Positions 42,285 through 58,938 of a stretch of 64,000 bases of DNA are shown piece after piece (the stretch's first letter is position 1; every line of letters starts with the position of its first letter). The DNA is from Salinigranum marinum (GTDB lineage: Archaea > Halobacteriota > Halobacteria > Halobacteriales > Haloferacaceae), in contig NZ_CP100463.1 in the NCBI RefSeq assembly GCF_024228675.1, positions 62,001 to 126,000 of the forward strand, in the 5' to 3' direction. The notes below the pieces were generated by a model. It had not been told where the DNA came from, searched no databases, and saw nothing but the letters and a program-made list of their open reading frames with translations. The position numbers and the translations under genes are program-made.

Positions 42285-44102
42285 ATGTCTTACACACACG
42301 TCCGCCGGGGCGGGTGGGTGACGAACACCGCGTTGACACTCGGGTTCCTGGCGCTCACCGCCGCGCTCGTGTCGGCACGAACGACCCCCGCCGTTGGCTA
42401 CGAGGTGTCGGTTTATCAGGCGACCCCGAGCGCGGTCTGGGCCGCGCTCGGGGTCGCGTTCGTCGTTTCGCTGGTCGTCTCGCTCTTCGAACGCAGTCGA
42501 CTGCGCTGGCTCGGACTCGCCCTTGGGGGGACCGCAGCGCTCACCGTGTTCGCCCTCCCGCTCATCCGGGGCTACTACTACTACGGGGCCAACGACGCGA
42601 TGACGCATCTGGGCTGGGTGCGCGACCTCGTGACCGGCCAGTCGGAGCCGATGTCAGTGTTCTACCCCGGCTTGCACAGCCTCTCGGTCTTCATCAGCTA
42701 CGTGACCGGCTACACGATCGAACGCGCGATCTTGCTGTCGCTCGTCTGCTTCGTGGCCGTCTCGTTCGTCTTCGTCCCCCTCTGTGTCCGTGCGATCGTC
42801 TCCGACAACGACATGGTCGTGGTGGCGTCGTTCGCGATGTTCATGCTGCTCCCCGTGAACAACGTCAGCACTCACGTCCACGCCCACCCCTTCACGCAGG
42901 CGGTGTTGTTCTCGACGCTGTCGCTGTTTTTAATCCTCCTGTATCTGCGAACCCCCGACGCCCGGTCGTCGATCGGCCCGGTCTCACACACCGGGGTGCT
43001 CCTGGCGCTCGCGAGCGTCGGGGTCGTTCTCTACCATCCGATGCACGCGCTGAACGTCCTCGTGCTGCTCGTCGGGGTCGTCTTCGTCCAGGCCGTCTAC
43101 TCGCGGGGCTGGGCCACCGGTACGGTGGCCGAGACGGTCGCCGGCCACCGGACGATGTACGCACAGACGTTGTTCTTGGGCTGGGCGTTCGTCGTGTGGG
43201 CGGTACGGCGACCCGCGTTCCAGAACACGGGCGAGGCCGTCGCCCGCCAGCTGGGTGGCTACTTCGGAGCGGCGCCGCCGGTGGCTGGCGGGCGGATCGC
43301 CTCACAGGGGAGCTCCCTCCAGGCGATCGGTGGCAGCCTCCCAGAGCTCTTCGCGAAGCTGTTCCTCGTGAGCGCCGTCTTCGCGGCGCTCACGGCCGTG
43401 ATCACCGTCGCGGCGTTCTCCGGCCGTCTCGAACGGCGACAGTCGGACCTCTCCGGTGTCGTCCAGTACTTTGCGGTCGGCACGCTGGGGCTCTTCCCGT
43501 TCATCGCCGCGTACTTCGCCGGCAACGTCGCCGAGATGCATTTCCGGCTGCTCGGCTTCCTGATGCTCGTCGGGACGATCCTGGGCGCGATCGGGCTGGT
43601 GTTCGGGATCCGCAGACTGTTCGCGCCCCGCGGACTCGCCTCGCCCCGCGCACGCGGCGTGTTGACGCTGATGTTGGCGGTGATGCTCGTCGTCTCGCTG
43701 GTGGCGGTGCTCCCGTCGCCGTTCATCTACAAGGCGACGCCACACATCACGGAGTCGCACATGACCGGCTACGAGACCGCCTTCGAGACGTCCGATCCCG
43801 ACCTGCCGATGGCCGGCGTGCGGAGCGCGCCGTGGCGCTACAGCGACGGGGTCGAAGGCGTGGCGGCCAGCACGCGGTACGAAACCGTGGTCCCCGACGG
43901 CGGCCTGACGGACCTCCGTGACTCGCTCAACGGGACCGGCTATCTCACGATAACCGACTTCGACAGGGGGCGGGAGCTCCAGGCGTACCGCGGCTTGCGC
44001 TACACGGACGAGGGCTTCGACTCCCTCGACGCCCAGGTCGGCGTGAACAAGGTCGAGTCGAACGGCGACTTCGTGATGTACCACGTCGTCGGGGAGGCGT
44101 GA
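42285..44102 (+). CDS. polytopic membrane protein, GT-C glycosyltransferase-like
   Basis: A 605-residue protein with about 11-12 transmembrane helices. After the second helix an extracytoplasmic loop has RGYYYYGANDAMTHLGWVRDLVTGQ, where N-D-A-M-T-H-L-G resembles the acidic first-loop motif of GT-C enzymes that use polyprenyl-phosphate sugars. Later helices include ILLSLVCFVAVSFVFVPLC, LVLLVGVVFVQAVY and GFLMLVGTILGAIGLVFGI. The C-terminal about 120 residues are extracellular. The role is either a sugar transferase outside the membrane or part of polymerisation; this is inferred from topology and context. It ends with GTGA next to the phosphatase-like gene, so both are translationally coupled. 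Confidence 0.8.
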   Translation: MSYTHVRRGGWVTNTALTLGFLALTAALVSARTTPAVGYEVSVYQATPSAVWAALGVAFVVSLVVSLFERSRLRWLGLALGGTAALTVFALPLIRGYYYYGANDAMTHLGWVRDLVTGQSEPMSVFYPGLHSLSVFISYVTGYTIERAILLSLVCFVAVSFVFVPLCVRAIVSDNDMVVVASFAMFMLLPVNNVSTHVHAHPFTQAVLFSTLSLFLILLYLRTPDARSSIGPVSHTGVLLALASVGVVLYHPMHALNVLVLLVGVVFVQAVYSRGWATGTVAETVAGHRTMYAQTLFLGWAFVVWAVRRPAFQNTGEAVARQLGGYFGAAPPVAGGRIASQGSSLQAIGGSLPELFAKLFLVSAVFAALTAVITVAAFSGRLERRQSDLSGVVQYFAVGTLGLFPFIAAYFAGNVAEMHFRLLGFLMLVGTILGAIGLVFGIRRLFAPRGLASPRARGVLTLMLAVMLVVSLVAVLPSPFIYKATPHITESHMTGYETAFETSDPDLPMAGVRSAPWRYSDGVEGVAASTRYETVVPDGGLTDLRDSLNGTGYLTITDFDRGRELQAYRGLRYTDEGFDSLDAQVGVNKVESNGDFVMYHVVGEA

Positions 44103-44110
44103 CCCGCCCC

Positions 44111-45529
44111 ATGACGCGCTCTCAGCGGCCGAACGTGATCTGGCTCACGATCGAGAGCACCCGGACGGACCACACCACGTTCGGCGGTGCCGACACCGAC
44201 ACGACGCCGAACCTCGCCCGCATCGCGGACGCCGACCGCGGCCGGGCCGTCCCCGGCTGTGTCGCCCACGGCGTGTGGACGCTCCCCTCCTCGGCGTCGA
44301 TCCTCACGGGGACGTACCCCACACACCACGGCGCGGGCATCACCGGGGAGGCGATCCCGGACAAACTCCCGACGGTGGCCGAGCGCCTCCGGGAGGTGGG
44401 CTACCACACGCGCTGTCTCTCGCCTAACTCCCACCTGAGCAGCGCGACGGGGCTCGACCGCGGTTTCGACGAGTTCGCGTGGGTCGCCACGTCGACGCTC
44501 CGGGAGACGATGGGGCTCCGGACGCTCTTTCGGTACCTGCGGAACCTCCGTGCGCACGGCGGCGGGCTGTCGCTGGAGCCCCGGCGTCACGGCACCGACT
44601 TCATGATGACCGACCGGCTCACGCGCTGGCTCCGCTCGGCGGGGGCCAGCCGGGAGCCGTACTTCGTCTACCTCCACTACGGGGGGCCACACCGACCGTA
44701 TCTCCCCCCGGCGCCGTACTACGATCGGCTCGCCACCGACGAGACGCTGCCGCGGTCGGCGGCGTACGACTTGGCGGCCGACCACCACGACAACCTGTTC
44801 GAACACATCGCCGACGGCTGTCCGTTCTCGTCGACCGAGTGGGCGACGCTGTCGGCGCTGTACGACGCCGAGATCGCCCACGTCGACGACCTGATCGGCG
44901 AACTGTTCGACACCGTCCGGTCGCTCGACGGCCGCGACACGGTGCTCGTCGTCACCTCGGACCACGGCGAACTGTTCGGTGAGGGCGGGCTGCTCGCCCA
45001 CCAGATCGTCGTCCACGACGCGGTCGTCGACGTCCCGCTCGTCGTCCACGGCTTCGACGAACTCGCCGACTACGACGGCGACGCCGTCCAGCACGCGGAC
45101 GTGATGCGGACGCTCCTCGAAGCCGCCGGCGCACCGACCGAGGGGATGCAGGGGCTCGACCTCCGGACGGAGAGCCGCGACCGGGCTATCGTCCAGCGGG
45201 GCGGCGAGCGCGCGCGTCAGAACCTCGAACAGATCGCCCAGTTCGATCCCGCCTTCGACACGACCCGCTACCACGACGGGACGCTGCACGCGGTGCGGAC
45301 GCCCACGTTCAAATATCTCCGTAGCGACGACCGGACCGAACTGTTCCGTCTCCCCGACGAGACGCGCGACGTCAGCGACGCCTATCCCGACGTCATCTCG
45401 CACCTCGACGGCGGTCTCTCCGAGTGGCTGGAGACGACCGGGAGGCCGCTGACCGACGAGCGGGTCGACGGCGAGTTCTCCGGCGCGATGCGCCAGCAGC
45501 TCCGCGACCTCGGCTACCTCGTCGAGTGA
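44111..45529 (+). CDS. sulfatase-like hydrolase/transferase without formylglycine Cys
   Basis: A 472-residue alkaline-phosphatase-superfamily enzyme. RPNVIWLTIESTRTDHTTFGG supplies the metal region (Glu instead of the usual Asp). VAHGVWTLPSSASILTGTYPTHHG holds the nucleophile, Thr57, where sulfatases carry Cys/Ser in C-x-P-x-R; so it is not a formylglycine enzyme and is closer to Thr-nucleophile phosphotransferases. VLVVTSDHGELFGEGGLLAHQ gives the Asp/His pair, and the terminus is the common LRDLGYLVE. The ATG at 44111 gives a short N-terminus; a GTG at 44099 overlaps the previous stop. It could transfer phosphoglycerol-like groups or hydrolyse phosphate esters on the glycan (inference). Confidence 0.87.
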   Translation: MTRSQRPNVIWLTIESTRTDHTTFGGADTDTTPNLARIADADRGRAVPGCVAHGVWTLPSSASILTGTYPTHHGAGITGEAIPDKLPTVAERLREVGYHTRCLSPNSHLSSATGLDRGFDEFAWVATSTLRETMGLRTLFRYLRNLRAHGGGLSLEPRRHGTDFMMTDRLTRWLRSAGASREPYFVYLHYGGPHRPYLPPAPYYDRLATDETLPRSAAYDLAADHHDNLFEHIADGCPFSSTEWATLSALYDAEIAHVDDLIGELFDTVRSLDGRDTVLVVTSDHGELFGEGGLLAHQIVVHDAVVDVPLVVHGFDELADYDGDAVQHADVMRTLLEAAGAPTEGMQGLDLRTESRDRAIVQRGGERARQNLEQIAQFDPAFDTTRYHDGTLHAVRTPTFKYLRSDDRTELFRLPDETRDVSDAYPDVISHLDGGLSEWLETTGRPLTDERVDGEFSGAMRQQLRDLGYLVE

Positions 45530-45708
45530 GCACGTCGACCGTCGTCGCGACCGGCCGGGCGACTCCGGTCACTTCCACTTCGGTTCACCTCCGAGCGAGG
45601 CGTGGCCCGTCTTCGGACACTGTTCGTCGCGGTAGCAAAAGTCGCTCGTCGTTCGTGTTCGTCGTTCGTGTCGTCCCGAACGGGGACGGTCGGCCGTCGC
45701 GTCCGCGA

Positions 45709-46116
45709 TCAGGCCGCGGGCTTGCCCACCTCGACGTCGTCGGGTTCATGACGTCTGTTCACGTAGCTGCCGATCGCGCCGCCGACGGCCCCGGGGACCG
45801 CCTGCAGCAGGAGGACGATCATGCCTGCCACGAAGACGCTGACGCCCGCGACCGGGCTCGCGAACACTGCCAGGAGCGAGAGGATCATCAGCACGACGAC
45901 GCCCCCGATGACGGTCGCGAGCCCGCCGTGGATCATGCCGCTTTCGGTCACGCTCGTCGCCATGTAGCCGGCGACGAAGCCGCCGGCGAGCCCGGCCAGC
46001 CCGTAGCCGATGACCGGGAGTGTGACGCCCACGAAGGGGATCGTTACGCCGCTGAGTAGGCCGATCACGACCGTCGTGACGAAGCCAGCGCCGACCGCTC
46101 GCCAGTTTACTTCCAT
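45709..46116 (-). CDS. DUF5518-type small membrane protein (copy 2)
   Basis: A 135-residue Gly/Val-rich membrane protein with four helices, starting MEVNWRAVGAGFVTTVVIGLLSG; IGYGLAGLAGGFVAGYMATS is followed by ESGMIHGGLATVIGGVVVLM. It is the same family as 352-717, though diverged. It ends with a soluble EPDDVEVGKPAA tail. The start was chosen at the ATG before VNWRAV. No function is known; it interrupts the glycan genes without obvious link to them. Confidence 0.85.
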   Translation of the reverse strand: MEVNWRAVGAGFVTTVVIGLLSGVTIPFVGVTLPVIGYGLAGLAGGFVAGYMATSVTESGMIHGGLATVIGGVVVLMILSLLAVFASPVAGVSVFVAGMIVLLLQAVPGAVGGAIGSYVNRRHEPDDVEVGKPAA

Positions 46117-46277
46117 TGTGATCGCACTGATATACGTCACCTGACGGGATGAACAGATGTTGACGGATACGAGCCACTCCGTGTCCAGATACTCTCAGAG
46201 GGACTGTCGCGACCGGTTACTGATGTCTCGCCACCCCGCTCCGACGAGATCGCGGCGACGACTCCAAACAGTCTCTC

Positions 46278-47216
46278 TCAGGCGTAGCCGAGGTGTCGGA
46301 GCCGGTCGCTCACGACGTCGTCGGTGACGGCGTCTTCGGTCTCCTCGCTCGCTTCGGCCACGATCGTCCGCCGCGGCCCGGCCGTGTGTTCGAGCCACGG
46401 CACCCGCGTCAGTTCGGGCGTGTAGACGCCGGGGGGGTGTCCCCACTCCCGGATCGGGATCGGGCGGGCGCGCTCGCCGATCATGTTGCCGTGATCCGAC
46501 GTGACGACGGTCTTGCCCGACAGCTCCGCGAGGAGGCGCTCGACGTGGGGCAGGGCCCGGTCGAGGTTGTCCCGGTACGCCCGCCACACCTCGTCGGTCG
46601 GCACTCGGATCCGCCCAGTCATCAGTTCCGTCCAGATGTCGGTCGTGAACTGTTCGGGGTCGGGGACGCTCATCTCCTCGGTCATCAGCTCCGAGCCAAT
46701 AAAGGGGTAGTGCGGCTGCATGAAGTGGACGACGAGCCGCTTTCGTGGGTACTCCCGGGCCGCCTCGAGCGCGTACTCGACCATCGTCTCGGGGAGGACG
46801 GTCCCAGACTCGTCGTCCCACCCCGCCTCCTCCCAGACGTTGACGACCGCGTGAAACGTCGGCCGGTACTTGCTGTCGTAGCCGCGCTGGAGGATCGGGC
46901 TGGCGGTGACGTACACCGTATCGAGCAGTTCGCGCTCGTGGAAGTTCCCGAGCAGGAACTCGGAGGTGTGCGCCGCCCGCGACACCCGCGTGGAGAGTTC
47001 GCCGGGGAGGTCGTGGCGCTCGGCGAACAGGTCGTAGCGGCAGGCGTCGAGCACGACGAGCGTGTCCCAGTCCTCCGCGACGACGTCGACGCCGGCGGTG
47101 TTGTACCGCCGCGTGTACAGCCGGCGGTGGTACGCTCGGTTCACCTCTCGCGCCAGGAGGGTCGGGTTCGAGAGTCCGCGACGGAGCCCACGTCGGAGCT
47201 GCGACAGCGAGTACAT
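46278..47216 (-). CDS. alkaline-phosphatase-superfamily (sulfatase-like) protein
   Basis: A 312-residue protein. DWDTLVVLDACRYDLFAERHDLPG supplies the first metal Asp. SRAAHTSEFLLGNFHERELLDTVYVTASP follows, with a Thr/Ser near the nucleophile position (AHTSEFL). RLVVHFMQPHYPFIG and GKTVVTSDHGNMIGERARPIPIREWGHPPGVY carry the Asp-His metal pair. It is shorter than typical sulfatases; such proteins are common in haloarchaeal glycosylation islands. It ends with the same kind of DRLRHLGYA tail as the other two family members here. The first 40 residues are basic and probably peripheral. It has its own ATAACAA element 27 nt upstream. Confidence 0.82.
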   Translation of the reverse strand: MYSLSQLRRGLRRGLSNPTLLAREVNRAYHRRLYTRRYNTAGVDVVAEDWDTLVVLDACRYDLFAERHDLPGELSTRVSRAAHTSEFLLGNFHERELLDTVYVTASPILQRGYDSKYRPTFHAVVNVWEEAGWDDESGTVLPETMVEYALEAAREYPRKRLVVHFMQPHYPFIGSELMTEEMSVPDPEQFTTDIWTELMTGRIRVPTDEVWRAYRDNLDRALPHVERLLAELSGKTVVTSDHGNMIGERARPIPIREWGHPPGVYTPELTRVPWLEHTAGPRRTIVAEASEETEDAVTDDVVSDRLRHLGYA

Positions 47217-47243
47217 CGGCTGGCTCTATCCGTCCCGACGGTA

Positions 47244-47250
47244 TTGTTAT
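47244..47250 (-). promoter_or_regulatory. ATAACAA element of sulfatase-like gene
   Basis: Minus-strand sequence ccATAACAATACCG, 27 nt upstream of the ATG at 47216. Confidence 0.6.
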
Positions 47251-47349
47251 GGACGAACTAGGTCGCGGCGACCCCGACAGGCGACGACCGCCCGACGGCA
47301 TCCGCCCGACCTCGGGAGGGGTCGCGGAGTGTCGCCCCGCCCGTCCCGG

Positions 47350-49221
47350 TCAGTCGAGGGTGGCCTGGAGCCAGTGTTCGAGCGTCGTCAGCGGGGCGAT
47401 GATCTTCATGTTGTTCGCGTCGCCGGCGAGATGCGCCGCCTGGGCGTCGCGGACGACGCCGTCGTCGAACAGCGCCCGGTCACAGGCCGCATCGAGCAGT
47501 CCGTCGACGGTCTCGCGAAGCGACTCGTTCGTCCGGTACCACTCGTCGACGAGCCCCCGACCGCCGTACGTCGTCCGGTCGCGGAGCCGGGCCAGCCCCG
47601 TCGTTCCGACGAATCCCGCGACGTGGATCGGGAAGGGGTACGACGGCGGCACGCCGGTTCGTTCGTAGGGGATCCGGGCCAGGTTCGCGTCCAGCCCGCG
47701 GATCAGCCGGAGTTTGGGGTAGGTCACGCCGTGTGGGATGCGGTTACGCGTCAGTGGCAGCGCCCCCATCCGGTAGCGCGTCGGGAGGCTGGCGGCGGCC
47801 TCGATGAGCGGGCCGTCGGCGTAGACGACGCGGGTCCCCACCCGGCTCCGCGGGAGCTGGTTGCTCGCGTGCGCACACCGGAGGTAGTAGTTCTGGAAGT
47901 GTGCGTCGAGCACCCGTCCCCGGAGCGACTGCTCGTCGCACCAGCGCACCTCCTCGCGGAAACTGTCGAGCGGGTCGACCGACGGCGTGAGCAGGTCGCG
48001 GACGGTCGACTCGTCGAGCGTCGCCTCGCTCCGGTACATCGACTCGACGGCCGACGAGTAGTCGGTCAGGTGGTGGCGCTCGACGTGGTGGCCGAACAGC
48101 GTCCCCTCGAGCCCCTCCATGACGACGCCCGTCGGATCGTCGATGTTGAAGACGGCCGAGAGGTTCTTCAGCGTGTTCCACTGCACCATCCCGTCGGTCC
48201 GCTCGATGACCGTCTCCAGGTGCGGGGCGAACCGCTCGGCGGACAGTTCGACTTCGGTATAGGGGACGTCGAGCGAATCCGCAACCCGGCGGGCGAGGTC
48301 GGGGTTCGGCCCCGGCGGGTTGGCGTCGTACGTGTACGCGACCAGGTCGGCCGCGCCCGTCGCCCCTGCCGCGTCCCGGGCGGTGTGTTGCACGCCGGCG
48401 GCGACCCCCGACCCGTCGGTCGCGTGCGTTCCGGCGTCGTCCCGTCGGTCGAGCGATCGGCGCAACGCGCAGGCCGTCACTCGGCTGTCGATCCCGCCCG
48501 AGAGCCACAGCCCCGCGCTCCCCGAGAGCGTCCCCGCGACCCGGTCGATCGAGCGTTCGGTCCGCTTGAGCAGCTCGTACAGGTACGGATCACCCGGGTC
48601 GGCCTCCTCGTACGACGGCTTCCAGTACCGCGTCGTCGTGTAGTCGCCGTCGACACACTCGAGGTACGTCGCGGGGCGGAGCGACCGGATCCCCTCGACG
48701 AGCGTCTTGTCTCCCCACATGTACCCCATGAGAAGCAGGTCGCTCGCCGCCTGCAGGTTCAGTTCCGCAGACGACCGCCGGGGCACCAGCGCCTTCAGTT
48801 CGGAGGCGAAGAGGAACTCCCCGTCGGTCGTGTAGTAACAGGGGCGCGTCCCGATCTTGTCCTGGGCGAGGACGAACCGTTCGTCGTGCCAGTCGACCGC
48901 ACAGAGGACGAACGGCCCTTCGATCCGCGGCAACACCGTGTCGGGGCGGTCCAAGACCGCCTCGAACAGTTCGTCGGTCCCGAGCGACAGCGCCTCGCGG
49001 TTCGTGATCGCGCCGTCGACGACGCCGGCCCGACCGTCGCCGTCCCAGATCGTCACGCCCCCGGGGTCGACGGAGCCGTGGTGTAACACGCCGAGGCCGG
49101 CGTCGCCCCGCCCGAAGCGGGCCTCCTCGTACGACTCCTCGTGGCGCATCGAGTCGAGCATGTTCGCAAGCGAGGCGGCGTCGACGCTCCCACCGGCAAG
49201 TCCCGTCATCAGTGCGTACAT
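47350..49221 (-). CDS. asparagine-synthetase-like amidotransferase without N-terminal Cys
   Basis: A 623-residue AsnB-type protein. The N-terminal Ntn-like domain (about 1-185) has VVDGAITNREALSLG and EGPFVLCAVDWHDERFVLAQDKIGTRPCYY. The ATP-pyrophosphatase domain carries the P-loop SGGIDS at 241-246 and GPNPDLARRVADSLDVPYTEVEL. The protein starts MYALMTGLAGGS; MTGLAGG (starting at residue 5, Met codon ending at 49209) aligns with the canonical MCGIAGI, so the nucleophile Cys is replaced by Thr. It may use ammonia, or Thr as nucleophile, or be non-glutaminolytic. In polysaccharide clusters AsnB relatives amidate uronic acids, which fits the predicted mannuronic acid pathway here. An alternative start at 49209 is quite possible. 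Confidence 0.85.
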   Translation of the reverse strand: MYALMTGLAGGSVDAASLANMLDSMRHEESYEEARFGRGDAGLGVLHHGSVDPGGVTIWDGDGRAGVVDGAITNREALSLGTDELFEAVLDRPDTVLPRIEGPFVLCAVDWHDERFVLAQDKIGTRPCYYTTDGEFLFASELKALVPRRSSAELNLQAASDLLLMGYMWGDKTLVEGIRSLRPATYLECVDGDYTTTRYWKPSYEEADPGDPYLYELLKRTERSIDRVAGTLSGSAGLWLSGGIDSRVTACALRRSLDRRDDAGTHATDGSGVAAGVQHTARDAAGATGAADLVAYTYDANPPGPNPDLARRVADSLDVPYTEVELSAERFAPHLETVIERTDGMVQWNTLKNLSAVFNIDDPTGVVMEGLEGTLFGHHVERHHLTDYSSAVESMYRSEATLDESTVRDLLTPSVDPLDSFREEVRWCDEQSLRGRVLDAHFQNYYLRCAHASNQLPRSRVGTRVVYADGPLIEAAASLPTRYRMGALPLTRNRIPHGVTYPKLRLIRGLDANLARIPYERTGVPPSYPFPIHVAGFVGTTGLARLRDRTTYGGRGLVDEWYRTNESLRETVDGLLDAACDRALFDDGVVRDAQAAHLAGDANNMKIIAPLTTLEHWLQATLD

Positions 49222-49452: not shown

Positions 49453-50988
49453 ATGGCAAACGACGACGAACTGCGTGATCTCCTCTCGAGCGCCAGTCTC
49501 GTCTTCGTCGGAGGACTGCTGGCGGCGGTCTCGACGCTCGTCGAACAGATCGTCATCGCGCGCGTGCTCACGCCCGACGCCTACGGGGAGGTCAGCATCT
49601 CGATCGCGGTGATGACGCTCGGCATCACGATGGCGCTCGTCGGCTTCAATCAGGGCATCCCCCGGTTCATCTCGCGGTTCGAGTCGCCGGTGGACAGACG
49701 CGGTGCGTGGGCGACCGGCCTGTTGATCCCCGGATCGCTCAGTCTGGTCCTCGCCGTGGTGCTGGTCCTGACGATCGAGAGCGTGACCGGGCTGTTGTTC
49801 GAGCGGTTCAACTCGGAGCTCCTGCTGTTGCTGTTCGTCCTGAGCATCCCGTTCGAGGTGGGTCAGCGGGTCGGCGTCGGCGCGATCCGCGGCCACGAGA
49901 ACACCATCTACAAGACGTACACCGCGGATCTCCTCTACCCGGGCCTCCGGATCGGTCTCCTGGCTGTGCTCCTCGCCGCCGGCTACGGCGTCGTCGCCGC
50001 CGGGATCGCCTATCTCGGCGCGTCCATCGTCACGTTCGTCGCGGCGCACGTGCTCCTCAACCGCCTCCTCCCGCTCGTCGGACAGGTCGAACTCCACGCC
50101 CGGGAGATGGTCGTCTTCTCCGCCCCGCTCGTCATCTCGACGGTCCTCGGACTCCTGCTCACCAAGACCGACACGCTGATGCTCGGCTACTTCAGGCCCT
50201 CGGCCGAGGTGGGCATCTACACCGCGGCGTACACCGTCGCCAACGGGATGAACTTCGTCCTCATCGCGTTCGGTTTCCTCTACCTCCCGATCGTCTCCCG
50301 GCTCGACGCCGGCGACCGCCGCGACGAGGTCGACGAGATCTACACGACGCTCACCAAGTGGGTGTTCATCGTCACCTTCCCCGCGTTCCTCGTGTTCGCC
50401 TTCTTCCCCGAGGATGTCCTGTCGCTGTTCTTCGGCCAGGGGTACGCCGCGGGCGGCCTCGCGCTCACCATCCTGGCGTTCGGCTTTCTCACCAACTCGC
50501 TGGCCGGCCGCAACAAGGAGACGCTCTCGGCGTTCGGGTCGACGAAGTCCGTCCTCGCCGGCAACGCCGTCGCCTTCGGGCTCAACATCGTCCTCAACCT
50601 CGCGTTGATCCCGACGTACGGACAGCTCGGTGCGGCGGTCGCCTCCGCGGCGTCCATCATCGCGCTCAACGCGACGGTGCTCGTGATCCTGCACGTCGGC
50701 TTCGGTATCTCGCCCTTCTCGGCCTCGGTGGTTCGCACGTGCGTCGTGCTCCCGGTCACGCTCGTCCCGGTGATGGTGGCCGCTACCGGCTGGTTCTCGC
50801 TCGGTCTCGTCACCTTCCCGCTCCTGCTCGTCGTCCTCGGCGTGCTCGTGGTCGCGATCAGCGGGGTCGCGGGCGGCTTCCAGCCGGAGGACGAGGTGCT
50901 GATCGAGTTCGTCGAGGAGCGGTTCGGCATCACGGTGCCGTTCGTGCGACGGTTCATCCCTCCGGAAGGGAGTCAGTCCGCAGGATGA
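49453..50988 (+). CDS. Wzx-type polysaccharide flippase
   Basis: A 511-residue membrane protein with about 14 helices of the PST/MOP flippase superfamily. SASLVFVGGLLAAVSTLVEQIVIARVLTPDAYGEVSISIAVMTLGITMA is the typical Wzx opening. KTDTLMLGYFRPSAEVGIYTAAYTVANGMNFVLIAFGFLYLPIVSRL and LAGRNKETLSAFGSTKSVLAGNAVAFGLNIVLNLALIPTYGQLGAAVASAASII are further signatures. It probably moves polyprenyl-linked oligosaccharides across the membrane. A tataacgaat box lies about 71 nt upstream, a variant of the common element. Confidence 0.95.
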   Translation: MANDDELRDLLSSASLVFVGGLLAAVSTLVEQIVIARVLTPDAYGEVSISIAVMTLGITMALVGFNQGIPRFISRFESPVDRRGAWATGLLIPGSLSLVLAVVLVLTIESVTGLLFERFNSELLLLLFVLSIPFEVGQRVGVGAIRGHENTIYKTYTADLLYPGLRIGLLAVLLAAGYGVVAAGIAYLGASIVTFVAAHVLLNRLLPLVGQVELHAREMVVFSAPLVISTVLGLLLTKTDTLMLGYFRPSAEVGIYTAAYTVANGMNFVLIAFGFLYLPIVSRLDAGDRRDEVDEIYTTLTKWVFIVTFPAFLVFAFFPEDVLSLFFGQGYAAGGLALTILAFGFLTNSLAGRNKETLSAFGSTKSVLAGNAVAFGLNIVLNLALIPTYGQLGAAVASAASIIALNATVLVILHVGFGISPFSASVVRTCVVLPVTLVPVMVAATGWFSLGLVTFPLLLVVLGVLVVAISGVAGGFQPEDEVLIEFVEERFGITVPFVRRFIPPEGSQSAG

Positions 50989-51084
50989 CCCCCGCTAGGA
51001 GTCGGCTTGCACGTGATCGGTCCGAGGGGAGTCGGGCCGCAGACAGGCACCCAGGTCGGGTCCGGTCTGCCCGTCCATGCCGGC

Positions 51085-51303
51085 TCAGATCATCTCGATC
51101 GGGTCCGTCACGAGGCTCGGTTCGACGACCATGAACGTCGCGTCCCGGAGCATGTCCTTCTCGTCGGGCATGACGATGCAACACTCCCGCGACCCACAGG
51201 TCGACTGGATCACCTCGAGTTCGAGCAGCTCGTAGCTGAGGTCGTCCTCGAGGTCGGGGTGGAGCGGCATGTCCCGCCACTCCGTGGGCTCTGCGGTCGA
51301 CAC
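51085..51303 (-). CDS. 72-aa conserved partner protein of beta-helix exoprotein (copy 1)
   Basis: A 72-residue soluble protein. The core is EWRDMPLHPDLEDDLSYELLELEVIQSTCGSRECCIVMPDEKDMLRDATFMVVEPSLV, with a Cys-Gly-Ser...Cys-Cys motif. It is about 75% identical to the protein at 53888-54106. Both follow directly downstream of the large beta-helix exoprotein genes and have a GGAGG-type Shine-Dalgarno, so they are part of the same operon. The GTG at 51303 aligns with the start of copy 2. Two or three conserved Cys may bind a metal or form a disulfide. No signal peptide is seen, so it should stay in the cytoplasm. Function unknown. Confidence 0.75.
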   Translation of the reverse strand: MSTAEPTEWRDMPLHPDLEDDLSYELLELEVIQSTCGSRECCIVMPDEKDMLRDATFMVVEPSLVTDPIEMI

Positions 51304-51356
51304 GGTCACCGCCCCTCCGGTCGAGGAGCGCCGAGCACGTCGGCTGGCACCATCGG

Positions 51357-53285
51357 TCAGCGGGCTCCCGCGTCGACCTGGTTTCCGTCGACCGCGACGG
51401 CGGCGTTCCCTTCGAGGAACGTGACGTTCGACACCTCACCGGAGAACCGGTACGAGTCGACGTCACCCTCGTTGGTGACCCAGCCCGTGACGGTCGAGCC
51501 GGTGACTTCGTCCCACGACTCGACGTCGCTCGCGCCGGGATCGGCCTTCAGATCGCCGCTGACGGCGATCTCGTAGTTGGTCTGCGTCCCCGTCCCCCGG
51601 ACTGTGAGGGTTCGAGGAAGTGATTGTTCCTCTGGCTGCTTGGGTTCTTCAGTCTCTTCGGGCTCCTCGGGCTCCTGTGCTTCCTGAGGTTCTTCGGGCT
51701 CTTTGGTCCCGCCGTCGGGCATCGGCTCACCGCTGTTTCCCGTCGGGACCGGGCAGGTGCCGCCGGTCGAGATCCCGTTCGTCTGGACGTTCGACTGCGG
51801 CGTCGCCACGTCGGTCCCGGTCACGTTGATCGTGCTGTCGGTGACGCTGCTCTGACCGGACCTGACGAACGCGACGCCGCCGCGGCCACTGCCCGTCTGC
51901 TGGATACAGCAGTTCGTGAGCTCCGACTGTTCGGCGTCGACGAGTTGAAGCGCGCTTCCGTTGTTCGCGCTCCCGGTCACGCTCACGTTGTTCATCCGCA
52001 CCCACCGCGCACCCTTCGAGGCGGGGTGTTTCCCGAAGCCCGTCTGCCCTTCACGCAGGACGGCGGGGACGTTCGCGTTGACCTGGATCCGCGTGTTCTC
52101 GATCGTCACCGTCTTTCCCGGCCCGCGAACCATCACGCCGGGACCCGGCGAGGGATGGTCGTTGATCACGATCTCGCAGTTGCGGATCGTCGCGCCCGGG
52201 GGCTTGTTGATGTACGCCGTCTTCTGGTTGATCACGATCCCGCGGTGACGGAACGACCGGCGCTCGTACTGCGACTCGCGCGCGCCGGTGTACTTGCTCG
52301 CGTCGATCTCGATCCGCGCGCCGTCGACGTAGCTCCCCTCGCCGCCGAAGCGCATCGCCTGGCCGTTGTTGTTCCGGTAGAGCCCACCCTCGACCTGGAT
52401 CTTCCCGCGAATGGCGGTCGCGTAGAGCCCCGATCCACCAAACTCCTCGAAGTGGCAGTCGATCACGCGGAGCGTCCCGCGCGTGCCTGCGCCGGACCAC
52501 AGCGGCGCGCGCCCGCCGCCGTAGCGCGCCCAGTGCGAGCCTTTCTTCGCGACGACGTTCTTGAGCGTGCCGACGCCGTCGGGGTCGGTGACGCGGACGA
52601 CGAAACAGTCGGTGCTGCCGCCGCCGTTCTTGTACGAGTTGGCGTCGCCGCGGCCGATGAACTCCACGTTCTCGACGTGGAACCGCTTGGTCACCAGCAT
52701 CTTCAGGCCGGTCGTGGTGTCGTTGGCCCGGATGTCGAAGTCGATGTTCTTGAAGAGGAACCGATCGACCGTATTGTTCCCACCGCCGACGGTGAACAGG
52801 TAGTCGTCGCCTTGCGTCCCCGACGGCGGGACGAACGTGACGTTGTCGCCGAGGCCGATGAAGCCGACTGTCCCCTTGTTGAGAATCGCCTGGTTCTTGC
52901 GGGCGAAGCGGTACCGACCCTCGGGGAACTGGATGAGCGTCCGGTCCTTGATGGCGCGCTGGACGGCGCCGTCGACCGGTTCGTTACCCGTCGGGTCCGC
53001 GCCGTAGTCCTTGACGATGTTGACGACGCGGTCGAAATTGATCCCGTTGATTTTCGTCGCTGCCGCCGCACTCCCGGCGGTCGCGGCGGAGCCGAGTCCG
53101 AGCGCGGCGGCGGCCCCGGCTAACTTCAGGACCGACCGACGGTGGATCCGTCCGTCCTCCCGCCCGTTGTCGTCGGTAGTCACTGCCTTTCGGTCCGTCT
53201 GGTCGGTACGCCCGTCCTTCCCGCCCGTCGGCTGTGCGGTAGTATCGTCGTTATCCGAACCGTCCGGATTGTGGCTACTTGCCAT
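51357..53285 (-). CDS. Tat-exported right-handed beta-helix protein (module copy 1)
   Basis: A 642-residue exoprotein. The twin-arginine signal RRSVLKLAGAAAALG lies at 49-63 after an unusually long acidic N-region. The first beta-helix turns begin at FDRVVNIVKDYGADPTGNEPVDGAVQRAIKDRTLIQFPEGRYRF, the typical pectate-lyase-like opening. Parallel beta-helix repeats run to about 500. A Pro/Glu-rich linker (about 525-557) is followed by one C-terminal domain that starts LPRTLTVRGTGTQTNYEIAVSG and ends NAAVAVDGNQVDAGAR. It probably binds or cleaves surface polysaccharide, but catalytic residues were not identified. It is the near-twin of the 54162-56546 protein. The promoter region is conserved between the two. 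Confidence 0.87.
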   Translation of the reverse strand: MASSHNPDGSDNDDTTAQPTGGKDGRTDQTDRKAVTTDDNGREDGRIHRRSVLKLAGAAAALGLGSAATAGSAAAATKINGINFDRVVNIVKDYGADPTGNEPVDGAVQRAIKDRTLIQFPEGRYRFARKNQAILNKGTVGFIGLGDNVTFVPPSGTQGDDYLFTVGGGNNTVDRFLFKNIDFDIRANDTTTGLKMLVTKRFHVENVEFIGRGDANSYKNGGGSTDCFVVRVTDPDGVGTLKNVVAKKGSHWARYGGGRAPLWSGAGTRGTLRVIDCHFEEFGGSGLYATAIRGKIQVEGGLYRNNNGQAMRFGGEGSYVDGARIEIDASKYTGARESQYERRSFRHRGIVINQKTAYINKPPGATIRNCEIVINDHPSPGPGVMVRGPGKTVTIENTRIQVNANVPAVLREGQTGFGKHPASKGARWVRMNNVSVTGSANNGSALQLVDAEQSELTNCCIQQTGSGRGGVAFVRSGQSSVTDSTINVTGTDVATPQSNVQTNGISTGGTCPVPTGNSGEPMPDGGTKEPEEPQEAQEPEEPEETEEPKQPEEQSLPRTLTVRGTGTQTNYEIAVSGDLKADPGASDVESWDEVTGSTVTGWVTNEGDVDSYRFSGEVSNVTFLEGNAAVAVDGNQVDAGAR

Positions 53286-53289
53286 CGGT

Positions 53290-53323
53290 CGGTAGAATTA
53301 GCCTACTTTTGAAACAGTTATTA
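53290..53323 (-). promoter_or_regulatory. conserved promoter of beta-helix gene (copy 1)
   Basis: The stretch holding the complement of ggtagaattagcctactttt and gaaacagttattac is identical to that at 56552-56584. On the minus strand it reads gtAATAACTGTTTC, a variant of the common element, ending 29 nt before the ATG. Confidence 0.6.
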
Positions 53324-53887
53324 CAGCCTCACGGTCGGTTCCCTCCGGGTACAGCATGGATGGGGTTCCGATAGTTACCAGACGTCTCCCTCCTTACCAT
53401 ACGAACGTCAGAACACCCCGTAACTATTGCCGACAGTTCCCGGTGCGCGATATAACGCGGTACGGTAACGTTTCTCGGGGAGTAAGGGGCCGAAAATACG
53501 ATCGACGGCCGGTTGGCCAGGATGCCCGCCCGGTCCGACCGGTCGTCGGCCACTCGGCCGTCAGACCGCGGACACGCGAGGGGATATGTGGTGGTTACCC
53601 ACGACGCTCGACAGCCGGGCGGTGGTCGACGACCGAGAGGCGAGACACAACCGAGAGGCGAGATACAAGTGTGACCCCCGCGCGTACTCGCAACCTGACT
53701 CGTGGCTGTCGTCGTGTGACGCGAGCGCGGGACGCGCGGACGTAGCCGGCTCTTACTGACAGTGACGAACCCTCGGACCCGATCGTCCCGCACCACCAGC
53801 GGTCCTCCTGCGGTCGAGCCCGATCCAGTCACGTTCGGGGGCGTCGACGGCGCTGGCCAGATGCAGGGACCGTTCGTCCGCGCCGGC
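53324..53887. other. intergenic region between duplicated modules
   Basis: About 560 bp. The first 130 bp are homologous to 56586-56710 (shared gtctccct/gtctctcctt, gtcagaa and cccggtgcgcg blocks), so the duplication includes the upstream region. The remainder is GC-rich with an 18-bp tandem repeat at 53633-53668. No gene recognised. Confidence 0.5.
53633..53668. repeat. 18-bp tandem repeat
   Basis: Two copies of ccgagaggcgaga(c/t)acaa, head-to-tail (53633-53650 and 53651-53668), differing at one base. Intergenic. Confidence 0.8.
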
Positions 53888-54106
53888 TCAGACCATCTCG
53901 ATCAGGTCCGTCACGAGGCCCGGCTCGACGACCATAAACGTCGCGTCCCGGATCATGTCCTTCTCGTTGGGCATGACGATGCAGTGCTCTTTCGACCCGC
54001 ACGTCGACGTGATCAGCTCGAGTTCCAGCAGCTCGTAGCCGAGGTCGTGCTCGAGGTGGGGGTGGAGCGGCGTGTCCCGCCACTCCGGGGGCTCGGCGGA
54101 CGCCAC
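53888..54106 (-). CDS. 72-aa conserved partner protein of beta-helix exoprotein (copy 2)
   Basis: A 72-residue protein: EWRDTPLHPHLEHDLGYELLELELITSTCGSKEHCIVMPNEKDMIRDATFMVVEPGLVTDLIEMV in outline, close to copy 1 at 51085-51303. It differs in one Cys (CCIVMP in copy 1, HCIVMP here). The GTG at 54106 follows a GGGGAGGTG Shine-Dalgarno 5 nt upstream. The gene is 55 bp after the 794-residue beta-helix gene, and the same arrangement is seen for copy 1. No function is known; its constant position suggests a role with the exoprotein. Confidence 0.75.
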   Translation of the reverse strand: MASAEPPEWRDTPLHPHLEHDLGYELLELELITSTCGSKEHCIVMPNEKDMIRDATFMVVEPGLVTDLIEMV

Positions 54107-54161
54107 GTCAGCACCTCCCCGCCGGCCGTCCGGCGTCGAGAGCGTCGACTGCGTGCATCGA

Positions 54162-56546
54162 CTAGAGCGCTCCCACGTCGACCTGGCTCCCGTCGACCGC
54201 GACGATCGCCTCGCCCTCGACGAACGTGACGGCGGTGAGTTCGCCGGTGAACTGGTAGGTGTCGACGTCGCCCTCGTTGGTGACCCAGCCCGTGACGGTC
54301 TGGCCGACGATCTCGTCCCACGACTCGACGTCGTTCGCGTCCGGATCCGCCTCCAGCCCGTCGCTGACGGTGATCTCGTAGTTGGTCTGCGTCCCCGTCC
54401 CCTCGACCGTCAGGGTGTGTGACTCCGGAGTGCCGGTACCGCCGTAGGGTTCGCCGTCGACCGTGACGGTCGCCTCGCCCTCGATGAACGTGAGATCGGT
54501 CACCTCGCCGGTGAACTGGTAGGTGTCGACGTCGCCCTCGTCGGTGACCCAGCCGGTGACGGTCGAGCCGGAGATCTCGTCCCACGACTCGACGTCGTCC
54601 GCGTCGGCGTCGGCCCCGAGCTCGCCGCTGACGGTGATCTCGTAGTTGGTCTGCGTCCCCGTCCCCTCGACCGCGAGGGTGTGTGACTCAGGGGCGTCGT
54701 CACCGCCGTCGCCGTAGGGTTCGCCGTCGACCACGACGGTCGCCTCGCCCTCGACGAACGTGACGTCCGACACCTCACCGGAGAACCGGTACGAGTCGAC
54801 GTCGCCCTCGTCGGTGACCCAGCCGGTGACGGTCGAGCCGGAGATCTCGTCCCACGACTCGACGTCGTCCGCGTCGGCGTCGACCGCCAACTCGTCGCTG
54901 ACGGTGATCTCGTAGTTGGTCTGCGTCCCCGTCCCCTCGACCGTCAGGCTGCGTGGGAGGGGTTGCTCCTCCGGTGCGTCGGACTCGTCGCTCCCGCCGC
55001 CGGGGGCGGGATTGCCGGTCGGCACCGGGCAGGTGCCGTCGGTCGAGATCCCGCTCGTCTGGACGTTCGACTGCGGCGTCGCCACGTCGGTCCCGGTCAC
55101 GTTGACCGTGCTGTCGGTGACGGTGCTCCCGCTGGACCTGACGAACCGGATGCCGTCGCGATCGGTTCCCGTCTGCTGGATACAGCAGTTCGTGAGCTCC
55201 GACTGTTCGGCGTCGACGAACTGGAGCGCGCTCCCGTTGTTCGCGTCGCCGGTCACGCTCACGTCGCTCATCCGCACCCACCGCGCACCGGTCGAGGCGG
55301 GGTGTTTCCCGAAGTCGTTCTCGCCCTCGCGCAGGACGGCGGGGACGTTCGCGTTGACCTGGATCCGCGTGTTCTCGATCGTCACCGTCTTCCCCGGCCC
55401 GCGAACCATCACGCCGGGGCCCGGCGACGGGTGATCATTGATCACGATCTCGCAGTTGCGGATCGCCGCCCCCGGCGGTTTGTTGATGTACGCCGTCTTC
55501 TGGTTGATCACGATCCCGCGGTGACGGAAGGCGCGGCGCTCGTACTCCGACTCGCGCGCGCCGGTGTACTTGCTCGCGTCGATCTCGATCCGCGCGCCGT
55601 CGACGTAGCTCCCCTCGCCGCCGAAGCGCATCGCCTGGCCGTTGTTGTTCCGGTAGAGACCGCCTTCGATCTGGATCTTCCCACGGATGGCCGTCGCGTA
55701 GAGCCCCGATCCGCCGAACTCCTCGAAGTGGCAGTCGATCACGCGGAGCGTCCCGCGCGTCCCTGCGCCGGACCACAGCGGCGCACGCCCACCGCCGTAG
55801 CGCGCCCAGTGAGACCCTTTCTTCGCGACGACGTTCTTGAGCGTGCCGACGCCGTCGGGGTCGGTGACGCGGACGACGAAACAGTCGGTACTGCCGTCGC
55901 CCCGCTTGTACGAGTTGGCGTCGCCGCGGCCGATGAACTCCACGTTCTCGATGTGGAACCCTCTCCGTACCAGGATCTTCAGGCCGGTCGTGGTGTCGTT
56001 GGCCTGGATGTCGAAGTCGATGTTCTTGAAGAGGAACCGACCGACCGTGTTGTTCCCACCGCCGATGGTGAACAGGTAGTCGTCCCCTCTCGTCCCCGAC
56101 GGCGGGACGAACGTGACGTCGCCGCGGCCGATGAAGCCGACCGTCGCCTTGTTGAGAATCGCTCGGTTCCGCTGGCTGAACCGGTACCGACCCTCGGGGA
56201 ACTCGATGAGGGTTCGGTCGCTGATGGCGCGCTGGACGGCGTCGTCGACCGGTTCGTTGCCGGTCGGGTCCGCGCCGTAGTCGTCGACGATGTTGACGAC
56301 GCGGTCGAACGGGATGCCGTTGACTCTCGTCGCTGCCGCCGCACTCCCGGCGGCCGCGGCGGAACCGACGCCGAGTGCCGCGGTCGCACCCGCGGCTTTC
56401 AGGACCGATCGGCGGTGGATCCGTCCTGCCGCCAGGCCACCGTCGGCGGTAGCCGTGTCTTTCGGGTCGGTAGATTCGCCTTTCCCGTGATCCGCCGCAG
56501 TAGTAGTATCTTTATCCGGACAGTCTGGATCGTGGCTACTTGCCAT
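54162..56546 (-). CDS. Tat-exported right-handed beta-helix protein with three C-terminal repeats (module copy 2)
   Basis: A 794-residue exoprotein. The Tat motif RRSVLK lies at 45-50 in a shorter acidic N-region than its twin, with the A-region ending near 73. The beta-helix (about 80-500) is nearly identical to copy 1 over long stretches (for example RVIDCHFEEFGGSGLYATAIRGKIQ). The C-terminus carries three copies (from about 533, each 80-90 residues) of a domain reading TLTVEGTGTQTNYEITVS..., DVESWDEISGSTVTGWVTDEGDVDSY..., EGEATVVVDGEPYG, where copy 1 has only one. The domain is of unknown function and probably binds carbohydrate or other cell-surface parts. It is the first gene of its module, with its own promoter. 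Confidence 0.87.
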   Translation of the reverse strand: MASSHDPDCPDKDTTTAADHGKGESTDPKDTATADGGLAAGRIHRRSVLKAAGATAALGVGSAAAAGSAAAATRVNGIPFDRVVNIVDDYGADPTGNEPVDDAVQRAISDRTLIEFPEGRYRFSQRNRAILNKATVGFIGRGDVTFVPPSGTRGDDYLFTIGGGNNTVGRFLFKNIDFDIQANDTTTGLKILVRRGFHIENVEFIGRGDANSYKRGDGSTDCFVVRVTDPDGVGTLKNVVAKKGSHWARYGGGRAPLWSGAGTRGTLRVIDCHFEEFGGSGLYATAIRGKIQIEGGLYRNNNGQAMRFGGEGSYVDGARIEIDASKYTGARESEYERRAFRHRGIVINQKTAYINKPPGAAIRNCEIVINDHPSPGPGVMVRGPGKTVTIENTRIQVNANVPAVLREGENDFGKHPASTGARWVRMSDVSVTGDANNGSALQFVDAEQSELTNCCIQQTGTDRDGIRFVRSSGSTVTDSTVNVTGTDVATPQSNVQTSGISTDGTCPVPTGNPAPGGGSDESDAPEEQPLPRSLTVEGTGTQTNYEITVSDELAVDADADDVESWDEISGSTVTGWVTDEGDVDSYRFSGEVSDVTFVEGEATVVVDGEPYGDGGDDAPESHTLAVEGTGTQTNYEITVSGELGADADADDVESWDEISGSTVTGWVTDEGDVDTYQFTGEVTDLTFIEGEATVTVDGEPYGGTGTPESHTLTVEGTGTQTNYEITVSDGLEADPDANDVESWDEIVGQTVTGWVTNEGDVDTYQFTGELTAVTFVEGEAIVAVDGSQVDVGAL
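54168..54960 (-). repeat. three tandem copies of C-terminal domain coding unit
   Basis: Three successive units of roughly 255-275 bp (about 54168-54420, 54420-54690, 54690-54960) encode nearly the same domain. The two on the right are the most alike. Compare one unit in the paralogue (about 51360-51610). Confidence 0.75.
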
Positions 56547-56551
56547 CGACC

Positions 56552-56585
56552 GGTAGAATTAGCCTACTTTTGAAACAGTTATTAC
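56552..56585 (-). promoter_or_regulatory. conserved promoter of beta-helix gene (copy 2)
   Basis: Same sequence as at 53290-53323, including the gtAATAACTGTTTC block whose core ends 29 nt from the ATG at 56546. Confidence 0.6.
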
Positions 56586-57119
56586 GCCCTCGCAGTCAGT
56601 TACTGCCGGATACAATCCATATACGGATAGATACGTACCACGTACGTCTCTCCTTGCGGTAAGAAGGTCAGAATTCCCAGTAAGTGTTGCCTATAGATCC
56701 CGGTGCGCGGACGGCCGACGGCGAAGCGTGTATGAGGTTCCTACCTCGTGCCCGTCCCGACCCGACACCGGCGTCGGGCCCACGACCGAGCGGCGGCTCC
56801 GGATCGACCGACGACGGCCTCTCGCGGCTGATAAGTAGTAACTACCTGTGGTGAGCGACCGTCGAACTGGCGGACTCGGAGTGGGACACGACACGCCGAG
56901 GATGCCGAGTTGTTCTGTTCTCCGGTTGTTCGCTGCTCGCCGCGCGCACGCACGGGTTCAACGTGAATCCACGAGTCAGAGCGGGTTCGGTCGAGGCACC
57001 TGGGCAGACCGAGTAAGAACGGGTTCGTCGAGGACACCCGGAACGACCGAGTGAGAACGGCGTTCTCGCTCACGCCTCCAGCGACGACTGACGATCGACC
57101 CGAGACGCGTGCGGGTCGA
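56586..57119. other. intergenic region, no gene seen
   Basis: 534 bp. The first 125 bp are shared with the upstream region of the other beta-helix gene. From 56720 on the DNA is GC-rich; an imperfect 38-bp tandem repeat lies at 56983-57058. Open frames have shuffled, Arg-rich composition. Confidence 0.5.
56983..57058. repeat. imperfect 38-bp tandem repeat
   Basis: Two adjacent 38-nt units (56983-57020 and 57021-57058), both beginning gggttcg and ending gaccgagt(a/g)agaac with small internal changes. They lie just downstream of the lipoprotein gene's stop codon. Confidence 0.65.
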
Positions 57120-58613
57120 TCAGCGGCTGTTCTGGACGCTCTGGAGACACGGGAGGACGGTCCCGTCGGCGAGTCGCACCCCAGCCGTATCCTCGGTCCG
57201 ACTCGTCAACTTCGGAGCGTTCTGGATGTCGACGTAACACTCCCCGTCGCTCCCACCCGAGCCGGGATCGACGACGACGGGGTACCGTGAGGCGACCACC
57301 GACCCGCCGTCGAGGACGCAGTTGCCCGACGCGACGATGTGGATGCCGTCGCGTCCCTCTCCCGTCTGGACGATGTCGCAGCCACGGAGGATCGATCCCG
57401 GCGCGCCCTCGATGATCACCGCGGCGCGACCGGACGCCTTGCCGGTGATCCGGACGTTCTCGAGCCGGATCCACCGAGGGTCCTCCGACGGGGGGTGCTT
57501 CTCGAACGACACTCGTCCGAACCGGTGGATCGCGGGGGTCTCCGGGGTGTCGACTCGTATCTCCGTGTCCCGAATCGTCGACTCCCTGGCGGGCCCCATG
57601 ACGGCGATCGCCGGTCCGGGGCTCGGTGCCTTCCGGATGTGGATCGAACAGTTCCTGATCTCGGCCCCGCCCGGTTTGGCGATGTACGCCGACTTCTGGT
57701 TGATGATGATGCCGCGGAGCCTGAACGCGTTCTGTTCTTGCGTGCGCGGGCCCGTATACTGGTCGAGATCGATCTCGATCGAGGCCCCGTCGACGTAGCT
57801 CCCGTCGCCGCCGATCCGGATGGACGCGACGTTGTTGTTCTTGAACGTCCCCCCGACGACCTGGACGTTCCCCTGCGTGGCCGTGGCGTAGATCCCGGCC
57901 CCCCCGAACTCCTCGAAGTGGCAGTCGACGACCCTGATCGTCCCGCGGTTCAGCTGGCCGATGTAGATCCCCGTTCGGCCGTTCCCGTAGTGACCCCACG
58001 CGGACCCCTTCCTGGCGACGTAGTTCCGAACGATCCCCACCCCAGAGGGGTCCTTGACCACGGGGACCAGCGCGTCCACCTCGTAGGGCGCGGAGTGGGT
58101 CCCGCGACCGACGTGCTCGACGTTCTCGATCCGAAAGCCGGTCTCCGTGATGGCCCTGATGCCGGCGTTGACGTCCGACTGCCGGATGTCGATGTCGAAG
58201 TTGTCGATCAGGAGCTCTCCCACGTCGATGTCGAGCAACCAGTGGTTGAACCCCTTGGGGGGAACGAGTCGGACCTGCCCCTCGCCGACGAAGCCCAGCC
58301 GCGAGTAGCCGTCGATGGCGATCCCATCGTCGAACTGGTACCGGCCGGCCGGAAACCGAAACAGGGTGTTCGAGGACATGGCGTCCTTGATCGTCCGATC
58401 ACAGGGCGACTCGCCGGTGGGGTCACACCCCAGATCGTCGACCACGTCGACGACCCGATCGAACGACTCGGCCACCTCCGGGGTCGCCGTCTCCGGCGTC
58501 GACGTGGGCTGTGGCGTCTCCGGCTCCGACTCGTCCGGGGAGCGTCCCCCACACCCGGCCAGCCCGGCCGCTCCGCCGGCGAGAAGCGCGAGGTATCTCC
58601 GTCGGTTCATCAT
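57120..58613 (-). CDS. beta-helix lipoprotein (third family member)
   Basis: A 497-residue protein with an N-terminal lipoprotein signal RRRYLALLAGGAAGLAGC (lipobox LAGC, predicted lipidated Cys21). A Thr/Pro/Glu-rich linker (about 24-47) leads to a right-handed beta-helix that starts SFDRVVDVVDDLGCDPTGESPCDRTIKDAMSSNTLFRFPAGRYQF. It shares its opening and many turns (RVVDCHFEEFGGAGIYATATQG) with the two Tat exoproteins but lacks their C-terminal domain and the 72-aa partner. It is probably tethered to the membrane outside the cell. The ATG at 58613 (adjacent ATG 58610) is preferred; a longer frame upstream would overlap the ATAACAA element at 58666. Confidence 0.85.
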   Translation of the reverse strand: MMNRRRYLALLAGGAAGLAGCGGRSPDESEPETPQPTSTPETATPEVAESFDRVVDVVDDLGCDPTGESPCDRTIKDAMSSNTLFRFPAGRYQFDDGIAIDGYSRLGFVGEGQVRLVPPKGFNHWLLDIDVGELLIDNFDIDIRQSDVNAGIRAITETGFRIENVEHVGRGTHSAPYEVDALVPVVKDPSGVGIVRNYVARKGSAWGHYGNGRTGIYIGQLNRGTIRVVDCHFEEFGGAGIYATATQGNVQVVGGTFKNNNVASIRIGGDGSYVDGASIEIDLDQYTGPRTQEQNAFRLRGIIINQKSAYIAKPGGAEIRNCSIHIRKAPSPGPAIAVMGPARESTIRDTEIRVDTPETPAIHRFGRVSFEKHPPSEDPRWIRLENVRITGKASGRAAVIIEGAPGSILRGCDIVQTGEGRDGIHIVASGNCVLDGGSVVASRYPVVVDPGSGGSDGECYVDIQNAPKLTSRTEDTAGVRLADGTVLPCLQSVQNSR

Positions 58614-58665
58614 GTTCGGTGAGCGGGCTTCGGTCGCATCGGTGAACGTAGTAGCCTGACGCGTA

Positions 58666-58672
58666 TTGTTAT
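58666..58672 (-). promoter_or_regulatory. ATAACAA element of beta-helix lipoprotein gene
   Basis: Minus-strand sequence tcAATAACAATACGCG, 52 nt upstream of the ATG at 58613. It is the rightmost copy seen. Confidence 0.55.
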
Positions 58673-58938
58673 TGATCGACATTCGTCAGAAACGTGCACC
58701 TACCCGATCACGTGCCGCCCAGGAACGTCGAGCGCAGCGGCACTCACTCGGAGTAAGAGCGTCCTACTCCGGCTCACCCGCCGTCCGCGCTCCCGATGTC
58801 GTGGTGGGGACATCGAGACGAGCGCGCGCCGCCGACTGTACGAAGAACTGACCTATTACTCATAACTATACCACATAGCTATACTTTTTCGGATCCTCGG
58901 AGCCGCCGGCTGACGCGTGCGGCCCCCAGAGTTCGGGC
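58673..58938. other. intergenic region, AT-rich patch
   Basis: 266 bp. An AT-rich stretch (58850-58890, with ctattactcataactatacc and ctatactttttc) interrupts GC-rich DNA; it may be the terminator of the LysE gene (minus) or an unknown promoter. No gene seen. Confidence 0.4.

Follow-up and report, generated by a model that had tools for sequence, protein, structure and literature searches.

The window analysed is a stretch of 64,000 nucleotides from Salinigranum marinum (contig NZ_CP100463.1, forward-strand positions 62,001 to 126,000). Two tandem modules, A and B, are located on its minus strand, each composed of a promoter region, a large gene and a small gene (Table 1). An earlier sequence-only reading had described these four open reading frames as a tandem repeat on one strand, and they were found to lie as it described. 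In both modules the GTG start of the small gene is preceded by a GGAGG-type ribosome site; small gene A starts at GTG 51303 or, as in the ORF list, at GTG 51309, which would give 74 residues. Just upstream of the modules lies a third beta-helix gene (gene C, 47% identity, without a small gene), which the sequence-only reading did not include.

Table 1. Features of the two modules and their surroundings, in positions of the window.
Feature	Position	Strand	Basis
Exopolysaccharide/surface-glycan cluster of which the modules form part	19981..49221	.	Pfam, gene model
Wzx-type flippase adjoining module A	49453..50988	+	PF13440, 6.7e-18
Module A: promoter, large gene and small gene	51072..53460	-	DNA identity profile, repeat finder
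Small gene A, 72 aa, GTG start	51085..51303	-	ORF list, family alignment
Large gene A, 642 aa: Tat signal (RIHRRSVLK), beta-helix, acidic/proline linker, one C-terminal domain	51357..53285	-	
C-terminal beta domain of large A, residues 555-635	51381..51623	-	own HMM, 6e-21
35-nt promoter-region block of module A, identical to that of module B	53290..53324	-	
Module B: entire duplicated unit	53875..56720	-	DNA identity profile, repeat finder
Small gene B, 72 aa, GTG start	53888..54106	-	ORF list, family alignment
Large gene B, 794 aa: Tat signal, beta-helix, three C-terminal domains	54162..56546	-	
Three tandem C-terminal beta domains of large B	54189..54962	-	own HMM; 264/270-nt repeats
Domain of large B, residues 529-608	54723..54962	-	
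Domain of large B, residues 620-698	54453..54689	-	
Domain of large B, residues 708-786	54189..54425	-	
35-nt promoter-region block of module B, identical to that of module A	56551..56585	-	
Gene C, older beta-helix paralogue, 520 aa: lipobox-type signal (by inspection), no C-terminal domain	57120..58682	-	

The extent of the repeat was determined with a pairwise DNA identity profile and a repeat finder. Homology between A and B runs from about 51072/53875 to about 53460/56720, spanning the 53-55 nt between the large and small genes as well as the upstream region, and outside both module ends the identity drops to background (39-57%). The unit measures about 2.4 kb in A and about 2.85 kb in B, a gap that mostly reflects the number of C-terminal domains. 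The sequence-only reading had proposed a duplication of roughly 2.5-2.8 kb including regulatory DNA, with a shared promoter block of 33 nt; the size and the homology of the intergenic segments agree with it, and the identical block came to 35 nt. A 25-nt core of this block occurs at only two sites in the 4.9 Mb genome with 3 mismatches allowed (0 copies expected in the window). With these two copies alone in the genome, the block was rejected as a regulon motif.

Identity between A and B is 80% for the large proteins (634 aligned residues) and 76% for the small ones (72 residues). Values of dS and dN were 0.27 and 0.11 for the large genes and 0.20 and 0.12 for the small genes; the similar dS indicates that both were copied together. 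A and B were sisters with a support of 1.0 in the small-gene tree and in the beta-helix trees, as joint duplication of the two genes would predict. The sister relation was absent from the midpoint-rooted tree of the terminal C-domain, which may be a rooting effect. The nearest relative of the cassette (locus L094) is found in another haloarchaeal family of the window's order, where it is present in a single copy with the same neighbours, in the order DUF7344, GlmS, beta-helix C, beta-helix B, small gene, flippase, Asn-synthase-like protein, sulfatases and 605-aa-type membrane protein. Gene C is the orthologue of L094:3312-4928 (beta-helix tree, support 1.0). From this orthologue and the single-copy block, the ancestral arrangement would have been C, B and small gene, with B and the small gene duplicated in the window lineage. 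Mutual nearest relatives in direct tandem, homologous non-coding DNA and a single-copy syntenic outgroup all support a single tandem duplication in which the two-gene module was copied whole, promoter included.

In the window's genus, two further species carry genes for the beta-helix and the C-terminal domain and no small gene at the threshold used; a third gave neither a beta-helix match nor a small gene at the thresholds used. The beta-helix genes of two congeners (L184:4355-7425; L185) look broken or split, with in-frame stops and adjoining ORFs. Since the small gene is missing in congeners and the nearest cassette belongs to another family, the cassette was likely acquired horizontally. 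The same facts would suit two separate acquisitions in place of a local duplication, but this is extremely improbable given the mutual nearest relationship, the common promoter and spacer DNA and the direct tandem, an arrangement of two small genes that was seen in no other sampled carrier.

Large proteins of relatives have four or five C-terminal domains, and copy A has therefore probably lost some. Silent divergence between large genes A and B was 30 of 211 fourfold sites in the helix core and 21 of 49 at the ends, a division of the gene that was chosen after seeing the data, and partial gene conversion between the two is possible. Gene conversion of the whole module was unsupported, as silent divergence extends through most of the gene, though it is less in the core. 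Most differences between the two copies fall in the signal/linker region and in the number of C-terminal domains, with the beta-helix core conserved; a change in dosage or in surface reach is therefore more probable than one of substrate.

Large A and large B scored above the PF12708 cut-off of 27 (32.0 bits, 1.3e-07, and 33.8 bits, 4e-08), and gene C scored 36.6 bits with PF13229 (cut-off 25.9); by these models all three are assigned to the pectate-lyase-like right-handed beta-helix superfamily. The AF2 model of the large protein had a mean pLDDT of 68 (moderate confidence), with most of the helix at 70-95. Its Foldseek matches were beta-helix structures (best E 2.3e-06) headed by the adhesin PfbA; the closest solved enzyme fold was that of the AlgE4/AlgE6 mannuronan epimerases (TM by target 0.57-0.58), and further matches were to GH28, GH87, tailspikes and the RbmB lyase. 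Both large A and large B have RRSVLK followed by a hydrophobic stretch, as expected of Tat substrates. At least 57 of 67 large proteins show an RR motif; the Pfam TAT_signal scores of the large proteins were under its cut-off. Across 40 homologues, reaching down to about 25% identity, residues D93, D179, Y283, N300/N301, R307, D323, R343 and R463 were each conserved in roughly 90% or more, which suggests that these polar positions mark a site. No recognised catalytic motif was found in the helix, and the conserved polar set was matched to no family's catalytic site.

After the beta-helix comes a beta domain of 80 residues, present in one to five copies, for which no Pfam model scored above cut-off. 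This C-terminal domain was found in 282 of 391 Halobacteria genomes, and more often in carriers of the small gene (103/117) than in non-carriers (179/274; Fisher P = 2e-6). At loci sampled for the domain, the neighbours were flippases, Asn-synthase-like proteins and glycosyltransferases, and no small-family gene was among the next genes listed.

The modules belong to a cluster with sugar genes for GlmS, a WecB-type epimerase, a UDP-sugar dehydrogenase, a MocA oxidoreductase, a DegT aminotransferase and a hexapeptide acetyltransferase, together with GT2/GT4, phosphodiesterase/sulfatases, an Asn-synthase-like protein, DUF7344 regulators and two FemAB-like GNAT genes. Two winged-helix-like DUF7344 genes are located at 34862-35413 and 23297-24088. 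Positions 19981-50988 contain a diacetamido-uronic-acid-type sugar pathway, a flippase, which also adjoins the single-copy cassette in L094, and sulfatase-like proteins. A cluster on a Haloferax mediterranei megaplasmid has WecB, dehydrogenase, DegT, MocA and acetyltransferase genes in matching order, and at its end lies a beta-helix gene of this kind (pHME505, NZ_CP039140.1 365561-368224), which is annotated as a hypothetical protein. The likeness extends to the protein layout, with four C-terminal domains, and to the neighbour gene set; it differs from the window in sequence (33.5% identity) and in having no small gene. The exopolysaccharide of H. mediterranei contains N-acetylglucosaminuronic acid, as cited in PMC5467301. 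The modules sit at the end of the exopolysaccharide locus, which probably makes a uronic-acid-containing polysaccharide. Homologues of window-cluster genes numbered on average 4.1 per 16 kb at paired and 5.75 at unpaired small-gene loci; 20 control regions, hand-picked at arbitrary positions in these genomes, gave 0.15.

Members of the small family were found in 117 of 391 Halobacteria genomes (33 of 86 genera). In a phylum sample of 393 genomes there were 27 carriers, every one in the window's order, and none of the viral contigs held a member. The family consensus is W..P.DPDP..DLGYEL.E.......LP.DE.MLR.DAFIVA....V.DL. Inspection of the short, acidic protein revealed neither a signal peptide nor a membrane segment. 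Searches with 26 members gave no Pfam, NCBIfam or PDB match, known Tat-chaperone families included, and PADLOC and PHROGs gave none for the family. The model of the small protein (pLDDT 77, pTM 0.50) was compared with solved folds using Foldseek, and nothing fell below E = 1.8. A scan of named genomes with a closer subset of the family returned ten loci. In Haloarcula hispanica pHH400 (NC_015944.1), a member with 43% identity (tblastn) was located at 364930-365118, where no gene is listed. Judged by sequence, the small protein represents a widespread, undescribed family.

The sequence-only reading held that the pair works together. Close coupling was found in most small-gene loci, 67 of 94 sampled small genes being placed 150 nt or less downstream of a large gene on the same strand. 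Among their partners, 62 end in the C-terminal domain (two of these are short proteins with little or no helix) and five are beta-helix proteins without it; of the 65 pairs that could be measured, 22 overlap and another 30 lie no more than 20 nt apart. Neither outcome that the sequence-only reading had named as refuting was seen, the intergenic segments being homologous and a beta-helix neighbour being the rule for the small gene. Divergence of the small protein was correlated with that of the C-terminal domain (r = 0.64) and of the helix (r = 0.63), against a largest r of 0.14 in 500 shuffles, shared species history contributing to r. Joint function as an obligate pair is only partly supported. 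At 24 of 80 deduplicated small-gene loci (about a quarter) no beta-helix or C-terminal-domain gene lies directly upstream, although at least three of the 24 have one 0.4-1 kb upstream, and the large protein with its C-terminal domain often occurs with no small gene downstream. The small gene is therefore not generally required for export or activity of the large protein. That both copies have been retained intact in the window, which the sequence-only reading took as a sign of joint function, is weak evidence because dS is low. The C-terminal domain as sole binding site of the small protein was weakened as a candidate by the five partners without it, which indicate that binding to this domain is not the whole story, and by the 14 of 117 carriers whose genomes lack the domain at E <= 0.001.

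The best explanation of the locus as a whole, to which we give slightly less than even confidence, is a cassette duplicated after the split from its closest known relative and coding for an exopolysaccharide-acting Tat beta-helix protein and its cytoplasmic escort. The large gene product would fold in the cytoplasm as a right-handed parallel beta-helix and be exported by the Tat pathway. Its target or binding partner is most likely the acidic exopolysaccharide of the cell itself: outside the cell the helix would bind, and probably cut or epimerise, the uronic-acid-containing polysaccharide made by the same cluster, while the C-terminal domains would anchor the protein in the matrix or at the cell surface. 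The small gene, translated right after the large gene and often overlapping it, would most likely yield a cytoplasmic escort that binds the new exoprotein, helps it to fold or keeps it inactive, and lets go at the Tat translocase. The analysis demonstrates the duplication, the gene order, the domain layout, the breadth of the families and the link to glycan loci, and the substrate, the enzymatic activity and the escort role are inferred. The lack of a recognised catalytic motif in the helix and of a solved fold matching the small-protein model were counted against this explanation. For the large protein, a structural adhesin or matrix protein in place of an enzyme is possible but not favoured; the top fold match to a surface adhesin and the missing motif are consistent with it, and a C-terminal repeat domain that varies in copy number is suggestive of surface reach, but the remaining fold matches are polysaccharide-active and the conserved residues exceed the needs of a plain scaffold.

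That the small family is dedicated to Tat-secreted, polysaccharide-acting beta-helix proteins, as cytoplasmic escort or as co-exported subunit, is proposed tentatively. Gene coupling and overlap, correlated divergence, the absence of a visible signal peptide and a Tat-substrate partner were counted for the escort, and the 24 unpaired loci against it. Those loci are also the basis of its main rival, in which the small protein has a glycan-locus role of its own, as a regulator or assembly factor for polysaccharide synthesis, and is merely co-transcribed with the beta-helix gene. Unpaired small genes keep the motif residues (W9, P16, D17, DLGY, LP and the F57 region) and sit in glycan loci, and DUF7344 regulators occur at 16 of 24 unpaired versus 9 of 56 paired loci; most copies, however, hug or overlap a Tat beta-helix gene though other genes of the locus change, and no DNA-binding or enzyme family was recognised in Pfam, NCBIfam or PDB, so that this role is rather doubtful. 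Bacterial Tat exports folded complexes with signal-less partners (PaoABC; PMC4273604), and the coupling and signal layout of the pair would fit a true subunit that leaves the cell bound to its Tat substrate. Such co-export is unlikely, as nothing places the small protein outside the cell, in many genomes the large protein gets by with no small gene, and the points against an escort apply here too. A secreted large protein with a small cytoplasmic partner also recalls a toxin and its immunity protein, but the small protein is conserved and not diversifying, the large protein often occurs alone, no PADLOC defence family was matched and the setting is a glycan locus; this pairing is highly improbable.

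Among known proteins, the A-modules of AlgE4/AlgE6 act on polyuronate and have repeat modules after the helix. They are unlike the window proteins, in which no YG.DPH-type motif was seen by eye and the C-terminal domains are not known R-modules. WceF of the Pantoea stewartii stewartan cluster is a tailspike-like beta-helix protein modifying the cell's own acidic exopolysaccharide (PMC7949094). It resembles the putative role of the large protein in this link to an acidic exopolysaccharide; it differs in being bacterial, and neither the layout of Tat beta-helix and repeat C-terminal domain nor a small partner is reported in the abstract. RbmB of Vibrio cholerae, a beta-helix alpha-1,4-polysaccharide lyase acting on its own biofilm exopolysaccharide (PMC11637428), was a Foldseek match of the window protein, but with a TM by target of 0.36-0.40 and 8-9% identity. 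The escort proposal finds its likeness in the redox enzyme maturation proteins DmsD/TorD and in PaoABC, where a small gene without its own signal peptide lies by that of a Tat substrate. No sequence or fold relation to these was found, their size is about 200 residues versus 72, and their partner is a redox enzyme in place of a glycan-type beta-helix.

Haloarchaea send most of their secretome through Tat. If the proposal is true, the small protein would be their first Tat helper with a specific substrate, and one without relation to the redox-enzyme chaperones of bacteria. Among the papers searched, none dealt with haloarchaeal beta-helix exopolysaccharide proteins, and both the C-terminal domain and the partner family are unnamed in every library searched. 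Unpaired, paired and duplicated states across genomes are natural contrasts for the role of the partner, and tractable species carry the parts: Haloferax mediterranei the beta-helix with its C-terminal domain, and Haloarcula hispanica the unannotated small gene. Judging from the breadth of its C-terminal domain, the beta-helix protein would be a near-universal, unnamed part of haloarchaeal surface-glycan loci; beta-helix proteins that trim or modify their own exopolysaccharide are known in bacteria, and the same logic may apply here in haloarchaea.
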